From assembly GCF_029761915.1 (NCBI RefSeq), contig NZ_CP121695.1, forward strand, positions 1,054,001 to 1,118,000: a DNA stretch of 64,000 bases, given 5' to 3'. Each line of letters begins with the position of its first letter. The stretch's first letter is position 1. The notes under the pieces were generated by a model. It saw only the letters and a list, made by a program, of their open reading frames with translations. It was not told where the DNA came from and did no database searches. Below are positions 34,772 to 45,197 of this stretch, piece by piece. The DNA comes from Bradyrhizobium sp. CB1650 (lineage in GTDB: Bacteria; Pseudomonadota; Alphaproteobacteria; Rhizobiales; Xanthobacteraceae). A program made the position numbers and the translations under genes.

Positions 34772-36232
34772 TCACTGAGCGGAAGCATCCGGCTTTAAAA
34801 AAGATTTCAGTTCGTCGAGGAAGCGACCGAATGCCGGCTCATCTTCCAGGATCAAGTGATTTCGGCTTTCGAGCGGAACAAAGCGAGCTCCTGGAATGGC
34901 CGCGGCCATGCGCCGGCCCGCTTCAAATGGCACCCTGGCGTCGTGACGTGAGTGCATCACCAATGTCGGCACGTTCACCTTGGAAAGCAGCGCCGTCACG
35001 TCTGTTTCGCCGGTAGCCATCAGATTGCGCGCTGCATCTTCGGGAGAGGTCGAGATACGCTGCAACTCGTTGAACCAGTCTGCTTGCTCCTTGGTGCCGC
35101 CCGGAAGGAACTGCGACGTGAATATTTGGCGGAAAGCCGGGTTTTCCTGACCCCACCCCAAACGCACAAGGGTCAGCATCGCTTCGCTGGCGTCCTTCTC
35201 GGCTTGCGTTCTTGCGCGCTTTTTCCATCCAACGGCATAGCCTCCAAAAAGGACCAGGCGAGTAACTCGCTCTGGATGCCGGACCGCATAGGCGATTGAT
35301 ACCGAACAGCCCTGCGAGACGCCAAGAAGAGCAAAGCGGTCGACTCCCGCCGCGTCGACGACGGCTTCGAGATCGTCCACGAAATGATCGAAGGAGACGT
35401 CGGGAACGTCACGATCCGAAAGTCCGTTTCCTCGCGAGTCATAGCGGATCAACTCATGATCGCGCGATAACTCGCGATAGAGATGTCTCCAGATCGGGCT
35501 TTCGAAATCGAATTCGAGATGGGTCATCCAATTGCCCGTCTTGACGAGGGCCGGACCCTTGCCCGTCTTCGCATAGGCCAGTTGCACGCCGTCCTTGGTT
35601 TGGCAGAAGTGGATCTCCTGCTCGTCGATGGCGACGTCGTTCGTTGCAGGCAACGCTGTCCACTCGGGCGCTGCCGCGAATTCGAGTGCTCTGATATCCT
35701 TGGCCGCCAGCCCGTAAACTCCGACGGCGCGCGCGATGTTCTTGACTGTCTGCTCCCCAAGGTCAGCGAAAGCCAATGAGAGCTTGTCCCTAATCTGTTC
35801 GTTCGCAGCCCGGGAGATGCAGACCCCGCCTGGCTCGCACAGCGCTTCGAGACGCGCAGCGATATTTACGCCATCGCCAAATATATCGCCGCCATCGATG
35901 ATGATATCGCCGACATTGATGCCGATGCGGAAGACGATCTGCTTATCTTCTGGAACGGTGGCATTGCGTGCCACCATCTCCCGCTGAATATTGACGGCGC
36001 ACGCAACCGCATCAACGACGCTTGCGAATTCGACCAGCATGCCGTCGCCCGTGGTTTTGACGATGCGCCCCCGGTGTTCCGCAATTCCCGGGTCGACCAG
36101 TTCACGGCGGTGAGATTTGAGAGATCGGAGCGTGCCAACTTCGTCGGCACCCATCAGACGGCTATAGCCAACGACATCTGCAGCCAGGACTGCCGCGAGC
36201 CGACGCTGCATCATCCACCCCACCATTTTCAT
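34772..36232 (-). CDS. Class III adenylate/guanylate cyclase fused to an alpha/beta hydrolase
   Basis: A 486-aa two-domain protein. Residues about 8-170 form a cyclase homology domain: LAAVLAADVVGYSRLM (first metal Asp), VKTTGDGMLVEFAS (second Asp), FRIGINVGDIIIDGGDIFGDGVNIAARLE. Residues about 205-486 form an alpha/beta hydrolase: nucleophile elbow GVSQGCSVS, Asp in HSRHDARVPF, His in ESRNHLILED, a complete triad. The hydrolase may act as a sensor or as an enzyme coupled to cyclic-nucleotide output. ATGs at 36214 or 36211 (MMQRRLAAV) are alternative starts. Confidence 0.9.
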   Translation of the reverse strand: MKMVGWMMQRRLAAVLAADVVGYSRLMGADEVGTLRSLKSHRRELVDPGIAEHRGRIVKTTGDGMLVEFASVVDAVACAVNIQREMVARNATVPEDKQIVFRIGINVGDIIIDGGDIFGDGVNIAARLEALCEPGGVCISRAANEQIRDKLSLAFADLGEQTVKNIARAVGVYGLAAKDIRALEFAAAPEWTALPATNDVAIDEQEIHFCQTKDGVQLAYAKTGKGPALVKTGNWMTHLEFDFESPIWRHLYRELSRDHELIRYDSRGNGLSDRDVPDVSFDHFVDDLEAVVDAAGVDRFALLGVSQGCSVSIAYAVRHPERVTRLVLFGGYAVGWKKRARTQAEKDASEAMLTLVRLGWGQENPAFRQIFTSQFLPGGTKEQADWFNELQRISTSPEDAARNLMATGETDVTALLSKVNVPTLVMHSRHDARVPFEAGRRMAAAIPGARFVPLESRNHLILEDEPAFGRFLDELKSFLKPDASAQ

Positions 36233-39638: not shown

Positions 39639-41096
39639 CTAGCTCGGGATTGCCGGTTTCCTGCCGCGTCCGAGCGCGAATTGACCGACCGGGCCTTCGA
39701 CGTGGAATTCGAGCCCCGTCATTCTTGCAAACAGATCGATGTTGCTAGTGCCGATGGCGCAGCCACCAAGGCCCATCTCGGTCGCCGCCAGGTAGAACGT
39801 CTGGAACAAATTGCCGACATTCTTCAGGATCAGCGAATATGCGATTGCGCTGTATTTCCAGGAGATCCGCCCAAATCGCGCGGCGATCGTGATCAGGACC
39901 TGCGGCGGCCCGGATGCGTCCATGGCAAACTCGGCCGCCATCGCAAGCTCCCGGAGCTGCTGGGCGGAGGCGTCGATCGCGACCAGGCCGTGGCTGCCCG
40001 CGTCGTAGTGGTAGAACCCACGTGCCAGGCCCTCGCAGTTCAGGACCGCGAGATACAGTTCCAGCTCGTACGCGCTGCCTGCCGACGGATAGGGGCGCGT
40101 GCTGTAGGTGACCTCCGGACCGCCGTCAAAGCCCGCGCCGGTCTTCCATTCCGACAGAACGCGGGCCGTCGTGCCGAGAAACTGCGCGAGCTCGGCGAGC
40201 GTGACCGGATGCTGGTCGTCGAAATCTCGTATTGAATGGCGTTCGCGGAGCAGCTTGGCGAAGGGCGAGATCGGTCCTGGCGTGGAGAACTTGCGAAGGT
40301 CGATCGTCTTGCCCGGCCAGGGCAGACGCACCGCGGGCAGCGGTGCAATGACGCCCGCATAGGCGAACGCGCCGCCGACCGGATCGGCATGCCGGCCTTC
40401 CGTGCTCCGCGTGTGAAACACGAGGTCGTGGAAATCCCAGAGAACGAGATTGCCGTCGCCTTCATTCTCCCGAAGGCCGTCGTCGTCTTTCGCATCGAGC
40501 TTGATCAGCATCCGGTTGTCGAGCAGCAATCCGAGCAGGTCGAGATTCACGGGGGCTGCGTGGCGGCGAAGCTTGCTGATCTTCCGGGGTTGCGACAGGG
40601 CCGCGAGGGTGGCCGCGATGGCGGGATCGCAAATCCGGAACAGCGCGCCGGCGCGCGGCGATTCCAGCACCATCTCGTTGCCGCGCCGGCGCAAGTATGC
40701 GAAGCGCGACAACGCGACGGTATCGCTGTCTCCCAGCTTTGCCGGCTGCGGCCAGTATTCGGCCACTTGCGGCTCGATGACCACGAGGTCCTGTTCGTCA
40801 CGCGGAGAAGAGAGCCGGTATTCGAGAAGCCCGTGCCGCGCCAGTCGCTGCACCAGGGCATGAACCTGCCGCGCGAGGACGCTTTTGCCGGCAAAGGAGG
40901 CGAGCGGCAGGCCGGTGGCGAGATGTCCCGCCCGCTCGACCGCCGCCACGCTGAATTGTCCCAGGTTGACCGAATAGCCGCCGAGGCCGGCGGCGATGCT
41001 TCCGTCCGCCTGCATGTGAAGGGAACAACGACCGTTCAATCGGGCGGCGATGATTGGTGCGATCTTCCTGGTCGGCTTTTTCCGGAAGTTGCGCAA
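39639..41096 (-). CDS. SagB-type dehydrogenase (TOMM/LAP maturation oxidase)
   Basis: A 485-aa protein. The C-terminal half is an FMN nitroreductase-fold SagB domain: ERHSIRDFDDQHPVTLAELA, RPYPSAGSAYELELYLAV and SWKYSAIAYSLILKNVGNLFQTFY, which includes the Lys-Tyr pair of these oxidases. The N-terminal ~215 residues are an extra domain of the kind seen in long SagB proteins. In known systems this enzyme oxidises azolines to thiazoles/oxazoles. The likely start is TTG 41096, with AAGG about 10 bp upstream; it follows the YcaO gene by 12 bp. Confidence 0.9.
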   Translation of the reverse strand: MRNFRKKPTRKIAPIIAARLNGRCSLHMQADGSIAAGLGGYSVNLGQFSVAAVERAGHLATGLPLASFAGKSVLARQVHALVQRLARHGLLEYRLSSPRDEQDLVVIEPQVAEYWPQPAKLGDSDTVALSRFAYLRRRGNEMVLESPRAGALFRICDPAIAATLAALSQPRKISKLRRHAAPVNLDLLGLLLDNRMLIKLDAKDDDGLRENEGDGNLVLWDFHDLVFHTRSTEGRHADPVGGAFAYAGVIAPLPAVRLPWPGKTIDLRKFSTPGPISPFAKLLRERHSIRDFDDQHPVTLAELAQFLGTTARVLSEWKTGAGFDGGPEVTYSTRPYPSAGSAYELELYLAVLNCEGLARGFYHYDAGSHGLVAIDASAQQLRELAMAAEFAMDASGPPQVLITIAARFGRISWKYSAIAYSLILKNVGNLFQTFYLAATEMGLGGCAIGTSNIDLFARMTGLEFHVEGPVGQFALGRGRKPAIPS

Positions 41097-41108
41097 CGAG
41101 GCGAGCCT

Positions 41109-43355
41109 TCAGGTGTGTGGAAGGAACGGAGTGAGTTCGCTTTCCAGTCGCGGGCGATCCAGCAATCCAAGCTTCACCGGAACATCGTAGAGCCGGCCGG
41201 GCGCGAAGCGGCGATAGAAATGCCGCAAGCCCGGGACGAGCACTCTGACGACGGGCACCTCGACGTCGGGCCGCGTCTGGTCGAGCACGAGGAAATCGTA
41301 ACCTGCCTGGGTGGCGATCTCGACACAGGCGTTGACCTGGTCGCGCGTATTGTCGTGAACCTCGAGGCTCGGTGCCGGCGGGACGATTGGATCGTCGCCG
41401 GGGATCAGGAACGGATAATCGTCGAGGCGGAGCGGCGTGACGCCGTCCAGCGTCGGCTTCTCGCCACTTCCGCCATGCATCATGCCGATCGACATGAACT
41501 GGGTCAGCTCGGTGAGGGACCGCAGCAGGGCGATGCGGCGATCGAAATGCGAGCCGGATCCGAACTCGATATTTTCGTGTCCGTCCTGCATCCAGTGCAT
41601 GATCGCCACGTAGGAGGGAATGCCGAGATCGCTGGTGATGTCGAGCACCCAAAGCCTGCGCCCCGCATCGGCAAACTGCGCCTGCAGGTCCCGCACATAG
41701 GAATCCTCGAATTGCGTGAGGTCGACCTCGGCGCGCTGCAGTCGGTTGTACCACCAGATGGCGTAGGCATCGCGCTCGACCAGTTCGAGGAAGCCTTGCA
41801 CGATGGCTTCCTCGCGGGTGTTGCCGGCGGCGCATCCGTTGGAATCGGTGTTGAAGCCGCCATAGAAGAAGTACAGGAGGCCGGTCGGAAGATATTTGAA
41901 GCGCTTGTCGCGGAGCGACCAGACCGGCGACCACTCGGTCCTGGTCGAGGGATCGAGCGGCTCGGGAACAGGATGCGAATCGTCGAGCCGCGGGGCGTAT
42001 CTGTTCTGAAACTGCGTGTCGCTGAAAAGCTGGACCTCGTTGGGGAGAAGAGCGTCGCCGGGCGCGAAATCGGTAAAGCGGCGCTTCGTCCTGATCTCGT
42101 CACCCTGGAAAATGCCCGAATAGCGCTCGATCGCCTCCATCAGTGCGCTGGCCTCGCCCTGTTCGGCCGTGGAGCCCTTGCCGAAGCTGCCGCCGCTCAG
42201 TCCGGATCTGAGCTGGTCGACGTTCCAGGCCGGCGCAGAGAAATTGTGGTAGGCGAAAAAATTGGTGTTCATCGGCAGATCGGCTTCGATCCGCTCGAGC
42301 CGCGAAACCACGCCGGTCAGCGGACTGACGTGTTTGCGAAACCGCGCGACGGTGGCTCGGGACGTCACGGTGCGGTATCCGCCGCTGGTCATGACGAGCT
42401 TTCTGCCCTCCGCAATCTCGATCGGCGTTGCGGCCCGGCGCGGACTCTGCAGCTTCTTGGCTCCGCAAGTGGGACATTGCGGGCGTTTGGCGACGTAGTG
42501 CTTGGCGATGACCGCTCCGGTCAGGTCGAAGCTTGCGATGTGATCGCGCAGATCGGTGCGAAATCCCGAGGCGATCGCTTTTGCGATTTCAACGGCCGCG
42601 AAGTGGACGGCGATCTGTCCTACGGTGTCGCCGACCAGGGGCGATACGGCGACCGCTTGCGCCGGTCCGCGGTCGAGAAATCCCTTGATCTCCCGATTGC
42701 GTATCATGCGATCGAACAGGCAGGTCCAGCAGGCGCTCTCGCCCGGCTTGAACACAGGTCCCACCAGCGGAAACACGCCCGACGGCTGCACCAGCAGCCA
42801 GGGCGCCCTCTCTGTCACGCGGTTCTGATTGATTTCAATCAGGCGCCGATCGAGGTAGTCGTTCGCCAACGTGATCGTGAGCTTGGGCGACCGCTTGGCG
42901 ATCCGAACGCCGAGCTTGCTCAAGGCGGCGGCAAGTTCCTTGGCGCCTTTGACATCGATCGATTCCACCCGCACGGGCCAATTGCGGAGGTTCTGTTCCG
43001 CTATCTCGGGAGGCAGACCGAGGCTCGCCCAATATCCATCGACGGCGCCTGTGAATGCGCGCGATGCACCGTTCACGACGTATCCGCGCTCCAACAGTCG
43101 TCCGATCGCTTCCTCGATCTTGTCGATAGGAAAATTCTTCAAAAGCTGACGAACGATCTCCGGCGCAGCCTTTCCGTTTTTCCCGATCGCCGCAGCCACC
43201 GCACAATAGAGATCGCCGTGCAGGAAGAACTTGCGGTTCTCGGAATAGAGACAGACCACATTGGGAGGAATGAGATAGGCGGTGAAGTTCGGCGCGAATC
43301 GCAAAATGCCCTCGCGGGTCTGTCTCGCAGCGCGGCTCTTGCCATTGACTGTCAT
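41109..43355 (-). CDS. Fused ocin-ThiF-like / YcaO cyclodehydratase (TOMM/LAP biosynthesis)
   Basis: A 748-aa fusion. Residues about 15-95 look like a winged-helix peptide-recognition element. Residues 100-330 are E1-like, with a zinc site at Cys209/Cys212 (ACWTCLF) and Cys294/Cys297 (QCPTCGAK). Residues 340-748 are YcaO, with ATP-binding motifs SALMEAIERYSG and EAIVQGFLELVERDAYAIWW. Such proteins bind the leader peptide and convert Cys/Ser/Thr to azolines using ATP. The C-terminus ends TPFLPHT rather than a clean PxPxP. A TTG at 43466 would extend the N-terminus. Confidence 0.93.
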   Translation of the reverse strand: MTVNGKSRAARQTREGILRFAPNFTAYLIPPNVVCLYSENRKFFLHGDLYCAVAAAIGKNGKAAPEIVRQLLKNFPIDKIEEAIGRLLERGYVVNGASRAFTGAVDGYWASLGLPPEIAEQNLRNWPVRVESIDVKGAKELAAALSKLGVRIAKRSPKLTITLANDYLDRRLIEINQNRVTERAPWLLVQPSGVFPLVGPVFKPGESACWTCLFDRMIRNREIKGFLDRGPAQAVAVSPLVGDTVGQIAVHFAAVEIAKAIASGFRTDLRDHIASFDLTGAVIAKHYVAKRPQCPTCGAKKLQSPRRAATPIEIAEGRKLVMTSGGYRTVTSRATVARFRKHVSPLTGVVSRLERIEADLPMNTNFFAYHNFSAPAWNVDQLRSGLSGGSFGKGSTAEQGEASALMEAIERYSGIFQGDEIRTKRRFTDFAPGDALLPNEVQLFSDTQFQNRYAPRLDDSHPVPEPLDPSTRTEWSPVWSLRDKRFKYLPTGLLYFFYGGFNTDSNGCAAGNTREEAIVQGFLELVERDAYAIWWYNRLQRAEVDLTQFEDSYVRDLQAQFADAGRRLWVLDITSDLGIPSYVAIMHWMQDGHENIEFGSGSHFDRRIALLRSLTELTQFMSIGMMHGGSGEKPTLDGVTPLRLDDYPFLIPGDDPIVPPAPSLEVHDNTRDQVNACVEIATQAGYDFLVLDQTRPDVEVPVVRVLVPGLRHFYRRFAPGRLYDVPVKLGLLDRPRLESELTPFLPHT

Positions 43356-43539
43356 CGGGTCAGCACGCTGATCCTGTTGCTGTCGCGTCCGGTTGCCGGC
43401 GCAGAGCGAACCAATCGCCCCGCGCGACGTGTGTGCCTCGCTCGACCGGTCGTATTCCTCGAACAAGTTGGATCACACTCGCCCGCCATCGGCAAGCTGA
43501 GCAGAGAGGTGCGGCGAACGTTGCGACGAAAGCAACAAA

Positions 43540-43568
43540 TTGGCCGGGTCGTTCGCCGGCCCGGCCAA
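43540..43568 (-). terminator. Hairpin between TOMM precursor and cyclodehydratase genes
   Basis: A perfect 9-bp stem (TTGGCCGGG / CCCGGCCAA) with an 11-nt loop, followed on the minus strand by TTTGTTGCTTTC. It lies 45 bp downstream of the precursor stop. Partial terminators at this place are known in sagA-type operons, where they let the precursor be expressed above the enzymes. Confidence 0.65.
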
Positions 43569-43613
43569 TGAAATCACAACGTGTCGATACGCAAAATCTG
43601 GGAGCGCTGTCTC

Positions 43614-44087
43614 CTAGCACCAGCGGCAGCGGCCCCACGATGCACAGCACCCTGCGCAGGACACCCATGGCACGCCTACGCCGATCCAACCGACGCCACA
43701 GCCGCCGCACCCACCGCAACCGACGCCGCAGCGGCAACCTCTGCAGGCCCGGCATCCTCCGCAGCCTCTGCAGCCTCCGCAACCTCTGGCGCCTCCGCAG
43801 CCATGGCAACCGCCGCATCCCCGCGCGAGCAGCACACTGCCCGCGACGCTTCCACGGTCGATGAGATTGAGATGGAAGGTGGCGAGACTGACGTCGGCGA
43901 GTTCTTCCTCACTGAGCGCCGTCATATGGCCGGGCGTGAAGTTCGGCCTGTGTTGAACGTCGCCGTTTGGCACCGCCGACGCCGATGCGCCTCCCGCGAG
44001 CGAAAAAGTCAGACCGGCTACGCCCAGCGCCGGCACCGCGGCTTTGGTCATCCGCTTCTTTTTCGAAGCTTGCTTCGCTCGCTGCAT
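43614..44087 (-). CDS. TOMM/LAP precursor peptide, Cys/Gly-rich core
   Basis: 157 aa. Residues 1-37: basic start (QRAKQASKKKRMTK), then a hydrophobic run to AGGASASA, like a Sec signal. Residues about 55-85: leader with LSEEELADVSLATFHL, recalling Nif11/NHLP-type recognition motifs. Residues 89-157: core with 18 Cys (91, 94, 97, 103, 106, 109, 112, 115, 118, 120, 124, 127, 130, 144, 147, 148, 154, 157), mostly CxxC steps with Gly/Arg, and a Trp/Val-rich gap at 131-143. It resembles microcin B17 and heterocycloanthracin cores in style. ATG 44087 has GGAGGA about 7 bp upstream. The enzymes follow on the same strand. Confidence 0.88.
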   Translation of the reverse strand: MQRAKQASKKKRMTKAAVPALGVAGLTFSLAGGASASAVPNGDVQHRPNFTPGHMTALSEEELADVSLATFHLNLIDRGSVAGSVLLARGCGGCHGCGGARGCGGCRGCGGCRACRGCRCGVGCGGCGGCGVGWIGVGVPWVSCAGCCASWGRCRWC

Positions 44088-44327
44088 GGCCGCATCCTCC
44101 AGGGTTGGAAGAACGATGTCCGAGAATATGATCCTATGCCGAGCGAACAAGGCGGGCAAGATTTACGCAAACACAAATTAATGGGGCTCGGCTGGATTGC
44201 ATTCATCTTCCTGAACGAAATCGCGCAATTTAATCGATCTCACCGGGGATCCGCGCGCGAGCGCAGTTGCGACGGGTGCGTTTGATGCAGTGCGCAATTG
44301 CCCTGCCGCTTGAACGGGGGAATTAGC
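44088..44327. promoter_or_regulatory. Divergent promoter region of the TOMM operon and VOC gene
   Basis: 240 bp between the precursor ATG and the VOC start. It is relatively AT-rich around 44160-44240 (ACAAATTAATGG, AATTTAATCG), as expected for promoters; exact boxes could not be fixed by eye. Confidence 0.4.
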
Positions 44328-45197
44328 TTGGTCGATCAGCCCGGACGCTTCGCCTGGTATGAACTATTGACGACAGACATGCGGGCCGCAGGAGCCTTCT
44401 ATGGCAAGGTCGTCGGTTGGGCCGCGAAAGATGCGTCGACTCCGGAACTGGCCTACACGCTTCTGACCAGAGGCGATGCTCCCCTCGTTGGGCTCATGGA
44501 GCTCCCCGAAGAGGGGCTGCGAATGGGCGCAACGCCGAGATGGGTCGGCTACGTCGCCGTCGATGACATGGATGCGAAGGCCGCGCAGATCCGCCGTCTC
44601 GGGGGCGCCATCCTGGTATCGCCGACCGACAGCAATATCGGCCGAATCTCTGTCGTCGCCGATCCGCAAGGAGCGACGTTTGCGCTGGTCACCGGACTGA
44701 CATATGGCGAGCGGCACCCCGGCGGCCTGGACGAGCCTGGGCGCGTGGGCTGGCACGAATTGCTGGCTGAAGACCGCAGCAGGATCTTCCCGTTTTACGG
44801 CGAGCTTCTTGGCTGGCGGAAGGCCTCCGCCGAAGCCGATCCGGCGGACCTGTATGATTTGTTTTCGGTGGCCGGACAGACGGTCGGCGGCATGCTCACC
44901 AAGCTTCCGAGCGTATCGCAGCCTTGTTGGCTCTATTACTTCAATGTCGACGACATCGGCGCGGCCGCCGAGCGCGTTGACACCGGCGGAGGCCGGGTCC
45001 TCCAGGGTCCGATCGAGTTGCCCGATGGTTGCTGGATCGTGCGGTGCGCCGATCCCCAAGGCGCCCTGTTTGCGCTGCAGGGGCCTTGGGATCAGAAGTG
45101 CACCGAGCGAGCTTCCGCCTCGGAAGTCAATTGGTCCGCCAGGTGGGGCGGTGTTTCTTCAAAGGGCAGGGTGGTCCTTCACAAGACCAAGCGCTAG
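44328..45197 (+). CDS. Two-domain VOC family protein
   Basis: A 289-aa protein of two tandem VOC repeats, beginning GRFAWYELLTTDMRAAGAFY and GRVGWHELLAEDRSRIFPFY. Each repeat ends in a DPQGA(T/L)FAL block (VVADPQGATFALV, RCADPQGALFALQ). It resembles CFP-30/hydroxylase-like VOC proteins of unknown substrate. TTG 44328 is preferred as start: GGGGGA lies 8 bp upstream, and an earlier TTG at 44298 lacks a site. It is divergent from the TOMM precursor. Confidence 0.88.
   Translation: MVDQPGRFAWYELLTTDMRAAGAFYGKVVGWAAKDASTPELAYTLLTRGDAPLVGLMELPEEGLRMGATPRWVGYVAVDDMDAKAAQIRRLGGAILVSPTDSNIGRISVVADPQGATFALVTGLTYGERHPGGLDEPGRVGWHELLAEDRSRIFPFYGELLGWRKASAEADPADLYDLFSVAGQTVGGMLTKLPSVSQPCWLYYFNVDDIGAAAERVDTGGGRVLQGPIELPDGCWIVRCADPQGALFALQGPWDQKCTERASASEVNWSARWGGVSSKGRVVLHKTKR

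Follow-up and report, generated by a model that had tools for sequence, protein, structure and literature searches.

The window analysed here, a stretch of 64,000 nucleotides from Bradyrhizobium sp. CB1650 (NZ_CP121695.1), carries on its minus strand, in this order, genes for a Cys-rich precursor peptide, a fused leader-binding/YcaO enzyme and a SagB-type dehydrogenase, with a gene of the VOC (glyoxalase) fold divergent to the precursor. The locus is likely to be the core of a Bradyrhizobium family of azole-forming ribosomally synthesized and post-translationally modified peptides (RiPPs), with dispersed precursors, signal-led export and a VOC partner as proposed below. Positions in the window are as follows:

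43614..44087, minus strand: putative RiPP precursor, 157 amino acids (leader 1-88, Cys-rich core 89-157), identified from the sequence and its relatives
43974..44087, minus strand: leader residues 1-38, with a basic start, a hydrophobic stretch and A-x-A, apparently signal-peptide-like
43875..43916, minus strand: leader residues 58-71, LSEEELADVSLATF, presumed enzyme recognition motif resembling cyanobactin LAELSEE (36-row alignment)
43617..43823, minus strand: core residues 89-157, with 18 Cys and C-terminal CCASWGRCRWC
41109..43352, minus strand: LynD/TruD-like fused leader-binding and YcaO heterocyclase, 747 amino acids from ATG 43352 (frame open to TTG 43466)
39639..41096, minus strand: SagB/ThcOx-type flavin mononucleotide (FMN) dehydrogenase, 485 amino acids, start uncertain (TTG as listed)
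44328..45197, plus strand: VOC gene, divergent to the precursor (start at TTG 44328 placed by eye, frame open from 44298)
44202..44215: palindrome TTCAT-N4-ATGAA with one mismatch (TTCAGGAAGATGAA on the minus strand), between the VOC and precursor genes

An earlier reading of this DNA, made from the letters alone (hereafter the sequence-only reading), had placed the three minus-strand genes together at 39639..44087. This interval does cover them; the VOC gene, the palindrome upstream and the precursors unlinked to the locus lie outside it. The precursor stop lies 261 bp from the YcaO start (ATG 43352), and 12 bp separate the two enzyme genes. The YcaO match is the single one in the whole 9.43 Mb genome, which consists of a single contig.

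The ThiF-like/YcaO fusion with a zinc site and the SagB dehydrogenase, as named in the sequence-only reading, were recovered as Pfam and NCBIfam families. The heterocyclase matched TIGR03882 (E 7e-44), TIGR03604 (E 4e-65; 220.4 bits, cut-off 219.25) and PF02624 (E 5e-91), and the dehydrogenase TIGR03605 (E 6e-52) and PF22767 (E 4e-34). The heterocyclase aligns over nearly its full length with LynD (E 6e-140; the alignment begins at LynD residue 6), and also with TruD and MusD; its zinc-type Cys pairs 208/211 and 293/296 (numbering of the 747 amino acid form) align with CWDC and CPTC of LynD. The best alignment of the dehydrogenase was with CyaGox (E 3e-51), and it is distantly related to McbC (E 2e-5). 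Judged from these alignments, the enzymes are of the cyanobactin type. The PatG domain (PF18065) was absent from the CB1650 genome, although three Bradyrhizobium control genomes gave two matches each in the same search, and no S8 peptidase match occurred among nine flanking genes scanned; a linear product would fit the absence of the PatG domain.

All 18 Cys of the precursor (positions 91, 94, 97, 103, 106, 109, 112, 115, 118, 120, 124, 127, 130, 144, 147, 148, 154 and 157) lie in the core at residues 89-157, as the sequence-only reading had it, together with 25 Gly, 8 Arg, 2 Ser and no Thr. No family was found for the precursor in Pfam or NCBIfam scans, and the closest relative in a protein search, from Bradyrhizobium elkanii, was 89 % identical. 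The sequence-only reading was to fall if the frame were not conserved in related genomes; instead, the frame is open in all 85 enzyme-linked copies read, and with the leader present in 85 of 195 Bradyrhizobium genomes it is not a chance frame. The linked precursors have 12-20 Cys each, all 85 end in Cys, and 83 carry the terminal motif CC..WG.C[RW].C, which might be the site where the enzyme starts; TruD is described as beginning at the C-terminal Cys and requiring the leader for processivity (PMC3995012). The ratio of nonsynonymous to synonymous substitutions (dN/dS) was 0.09-0.14 in the core and 0.26-0.30 in the leader (66, 167 and 404 pairs in three bands, not independent, and picked on leader dS alone). 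The figure for aligned Cys in these pairs, 98 %, is biased by the alignment matrix, and the cores differ much through insertions and deletions. By these ratios the core appears to be under purifying selection, as would be expected of a defined product and not of rapid change in an arms race.

In an alignment of 36 diverse leaders (one row from another family), E61, E62, D65, L68 and F71 are invariant within L-x-EEE-x-x-DVSLATF, a motif common to linked and unlinked precursors. The pattern doubled as a filter when these precursors were extracted and is not counted as a finding there. The leader in the window reads ALSEEELADV and its relatives LSEE or LGEEE, compared with the conserved LAELSEE described for cyanobactin leaders (PMC5460452). 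A PDB search with the leader segment matched no cyanobactin precursor, and the comparison therefore rests on that source and on cyanobactin-like clusters of Bradyrhizobium itself, whose SELSEE/LAELSEE leaders are similar. These clusters (L122 in G085, L123 in G118, L124 in G196:C11) have a LynD-like enzyme, short precursors and proteins with Peptidase_S8 and PatG domains (five scanned). A further LynD-like YcaO enzyme, 32 % identical to that in the window (L125, G106:C3, 1643-5130, plus strand), lies downstream of a 352 amino acid Thr/Ser/Gly-repeat protein without a Pfam match. At the other end of the leader, the start of the 85 linked precursors is basic (median net charge +7) with a hydrophobic window (median 1.66), and 84 have a small-x-Ala site, suggesting a signal-peptide-like start.

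The leader, the YcaO enzyme, SagB and VOC occur in the identical 85 of the 195 genomes, and on this distribution the VOC gene appears to belong to the set. One of the remaining 110 genomes has a partial enzyme pair and two have distant LynD-like enzymes. In 84 of the 85 precursor-bearing genomes the precursor immediately precedes the enzyme, in the same orientation; in the 85th (G027) the two are on separate contigs, at contig ends. Because of the enzyme families and this linkage, the assignment to the azole-forming RiPPs, already made in the sequence-only reading, is strongly supported. At one locus (L032, G017) the YcaO enzyme is 91 % identical to that in the window and the precursor, which is shorter, only 72 %, as if the precursor had been exchanged. 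Close relatives of the enzyme were found at 67 loci with a name; the titles of 62 read Bradyrhizobium, and the other five belong to metagenome-assembled genomes named less finely. Across 397 genomes of the order, eight had enzyme matches at E<=1e-90, five of them Bradyrhizobium and three from other families. Outside the genus, G426 (enzyme 57 % identical) has both the precursor and SagB, G401 (65 %) has a broken enzyme match, and G329 (40 %) has a precursor of a different type. The latter (L182, 8801-9211, minus strand) resembles by eye the nitrile-hydratase-leader peptides (NHLP), with DELSEEELDQVSGG before its core, next to the 40 % identical YcaO enzyme.

Altogether 135 precursor matches were found in 86 genomes, 85 of them (in 84 genomes, two matches in G020 being to one gene) adjoining the enzyme and 50 unlinked. 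With G027 (contig break) and G033 (E 5e-4, missed by the leader profile) set aside, 48 orphan precursors remain in 22 genomes, two of them in CB1650; they have the same leader and different cores. All 22 genomes are among the 85 with the gene set (hypergeometric 2e-9, kinship ignored), and the leader profile found no orphan in the 110 genomes without the complete set. In the 47 orphans read (all but that on G001:C162), Cys counts range from 2 to 22, the terminal motif is kept in 31, and ten have a proline-rich tail. Three end in GGQPQ, including the two in CB1650, which are 97 % alike over 1048 bp; these may be cut short, since the matches of all three continue past a stop. Another three are at a contig end, out of frame or degenerate. 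A conjugative plasmid in Bradyrhizobium sp. Ash2021 carries one orphan, and one chromosome of G076 has three with proline-rich tails (L113, L117 and L118), which share 98-99 % identity across some 710 bp and stand at three places with different flanks. Homology between orphan loci mostly spans 0.25-1 kb with unrelated flanks among the matches listed; copy ends differ within one aligned group of ten loci, and no clear terminal repeats were seen by eye, and an origin in mobile elements is not claimed. Longer matches (3.7 kb between L105 and L107, 1.6-2 kb among L092, L100 and L104) look like shared positions.

Enough upstream sequence was available for 84 linked precursors, and 82 of these are preceded by the palindrome TTCAT-N4-ATGAA (69 exact copies and 13 that have one mismatch), usually at 125-145 bp from the precursor start; so are 18 of 46 orphans (12 exact copies and 6 with one mismatch, of which one lies at another distance). 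With one mismatch allowed, shuffles, which keep base composition only, gave 0.15 and 0.3 copies per set, and they gave no exact copy; the counts are not an independent test, because the pattern was first noticed in an alignment of 29 upstream regions. Exact copies occur at 12 places in the CB1650 genome. Joint copying of gene and promoter would also yield the shared pattern.

From the enzyme families and the precursors we infer the following scheme. The precursor would be made with its long leader, of which the LynD-like enzyme would bind the LSEEExxDVSLATF segment with its N-terminal part, while the YcaO domain would use ATP to cyclise core Cys to thiazolines and the SagB/ThcOx-type flavoenzyme would oxidise these to thiazoles. 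The same pair probably modifies precursors at dispersed sites of the same genome in trans. A comparison of neighbouring genes (ATG frames of at least 90 amino acids in 13 stretches of about 17 kb) found no exporter or protease common to the 13 loci, and with no shared exporter, the signal-like start of the leader probably directs export of the modified peptide. The VOC gene is divergent to a precursor at 85 of 86 VOC matches, and once stands beside an orphan without the enzymes. Its product would be a partner dedicated to this precursor, and would most likely serve self-protection by binding the modified peptide. Elsewhere in the window (34772-36232, minus strand), a guanylate/adenylate cyclase domain is fused to an alpha/beta hydrolase.

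Several observations weigh against this scheme. The co-occurrence of the four genes is confounded by kinship, the signal-like start was judged from charge, hydropathy and A-x-A only, and a peptide-transporter-like ABC ATPase was seen by eye near 4 of the 13 loci, so that help in export is possible. No VOC match was found in the stretch fetched beside the precursor-enzyme set of G426, and VOC folds also tailor (AbxF). The terminal motif is missing from 16 of the 47 orphans, a few of which look decayed, and 28 of 46, both CB1650 orphans among them, are without the palindrome. Together with the three broken or degenerate copies and the three whose matches run past a stop, these losses could mean that the orphans are mostly dead or decaying duplicates rather than working substrates. 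We lean against this, given the 31 that keep the terminal motif, the 18 that keep the palindrome at about equal distance and the absence of any orphan where the set is missing. A similar, minority weight falls to the VOC protein being a tailoring enzyme for the product, in the way that AbxF acts upon a polyketide; its place once beside an orphan without enzymes and the lack of a match at G426 speak against this, and neither point decides.

As to biological function, antimicrobial activity of the product is possible. The same chemistry might instead yield an exported metal-binding peptide acting like the bufferins, for which Cys-derived heterocycles, a Sec signal and copper buffering are described (PMC12452194). 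The Cys-rich core, the signal-like start and purifying selection on the core rather than fast change would suit such a peptide; thiazoles, however, lose the free thiol, the enzymes are different, with no MNIO (DUF692) gene in the cluster (the sole match in the genome is at 7.33 Mb, 6.2 Mb away), and no metal gene is common to the 13 loci. We regard this alternative as rather unlikely, and a secreted antibacterial peptide as somewhat more likely. A Cys-rich metal-binding or structural protein that stays unmodified and stands beside the enzymes by chance is a very improbable reading of the precursor, in spite of a composition like that of Cys-rich metal-binding proteins, given the linkage and orientation in 84 genomes, the identical presence and absence across 195 and the cyanobactin-like recognition motif.

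More tentatively, and with confidence well short of even, the azole-forming locus and its orphans may constitute a distributed RiPP system, in which one LynD-like heterocyclase and one oxidase serve signal-bearing precursors scattered over chromosomes and one plasmid, some of them controlled by a common palindromic operator, and yield exported polythiazoles of up to about 20 rings guarded by a VOC-fold binding protein. If true, this would parallel, with a YcaO enzyme, the prochlorosins, in which one enzyme has many scattered precursors; it would extend to azole peptides the general export signal that is rare in RiPP precursors and would suggest that thiazole peptides can have a VOC-fold partner. 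With the gene set present in 85 of the 195 sampled genomes of a genus of agricultural soil symbionts, product and role are directly testable.

Thiazole/oxazole-modified microcins (TOMMs) and linear azole peptides, taken in the wide sense, have the features found here: a YcaO cyclodehydratase with a leader-binding domain beside the precursor, a conserved leader with a Cys-rich core, and a SagB-type FMN dehydrogenase. The sequence-only reading had likened the product to microcin B17 and heterocycloanthracin, which are not the nearest systems, the enzymes being full-length relatives of LynD/TruD and CyaGox. Clusters of the microcin B17 type have their own export and immunity genes. The linear Cys/Gly-rich core and an oxidase distantly related to McbC are shared with that type, which unlike the present locus has discrete C and D proteins, according to Cox et al. 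(2015, PMC4603692). Heterocycloanthracin/sonorensin also has a Cys/Gly-rich core and a precursor that may be distant from the enzyme, whereas it uses a truncated cyclodehydratase and an F protein (PMC4603692), a gene for which was not seen at the locus. The window precursor did not match the heterocycloanthracin model TIGR03601 at E<=1; two relatives reach 17.2 and 13.2 bits, where the cut-off is 35, and a relative is named heterocycloanthracin/sonorensin family in UniRef.

The TOMMs with NHLP or Nif11 leaders likewise have a cyanobactin-type D protein without PatA/PatG proteases (PMC4603692), but their leader is of another kind and the present precursor has no family match. The string 'rhizob' does not occur in the main text of Cox et al. 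(2015), PMC8120280, in the part available, treats TfuA-type clusters, and outside subscription journals no title on the Bradyrhizobium precursor family was found. Scattered precursors (prochlorosins, PMC10783134), distant precursors (heterocycloanthracin) and protease-less cyanobactin-like enzymes (NHLP/Nif11, PMC4603692) are already described; their occurrence together, along with a signal-like leader and a VOC partner, was not met in that same literature.

Cyanobactins are alike in the full-length heterocyclase match, the oxidase match and, less clearly, the LSEE-type leader motif, and unlike in that the CB1650 genome has no PatG domain and the precursor a far longer Cys-rich core, a signal-like start and a VOC partner; short core cassettes between cyanobactin protease signatures were not seen by eye in the precursors read. 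Bufferins also have a Cys-rich precursor, with an N-terminal signal to which the signal-like start here may correspond, but an MNIO enzyme instead of YcaO/SagB and no separate recognition motif of such kind; Sec signals in RiPP precursors are called rare there, with Sec use demonstrated only for bufferins (PMC12452194). The prochlorosins (ProcA/SyncA), different in their lanthipeptide chemistry and leader, share with the Bradyrhizobium precursors the scattering of genes for one promiscuous enzyme (PMC10783134).
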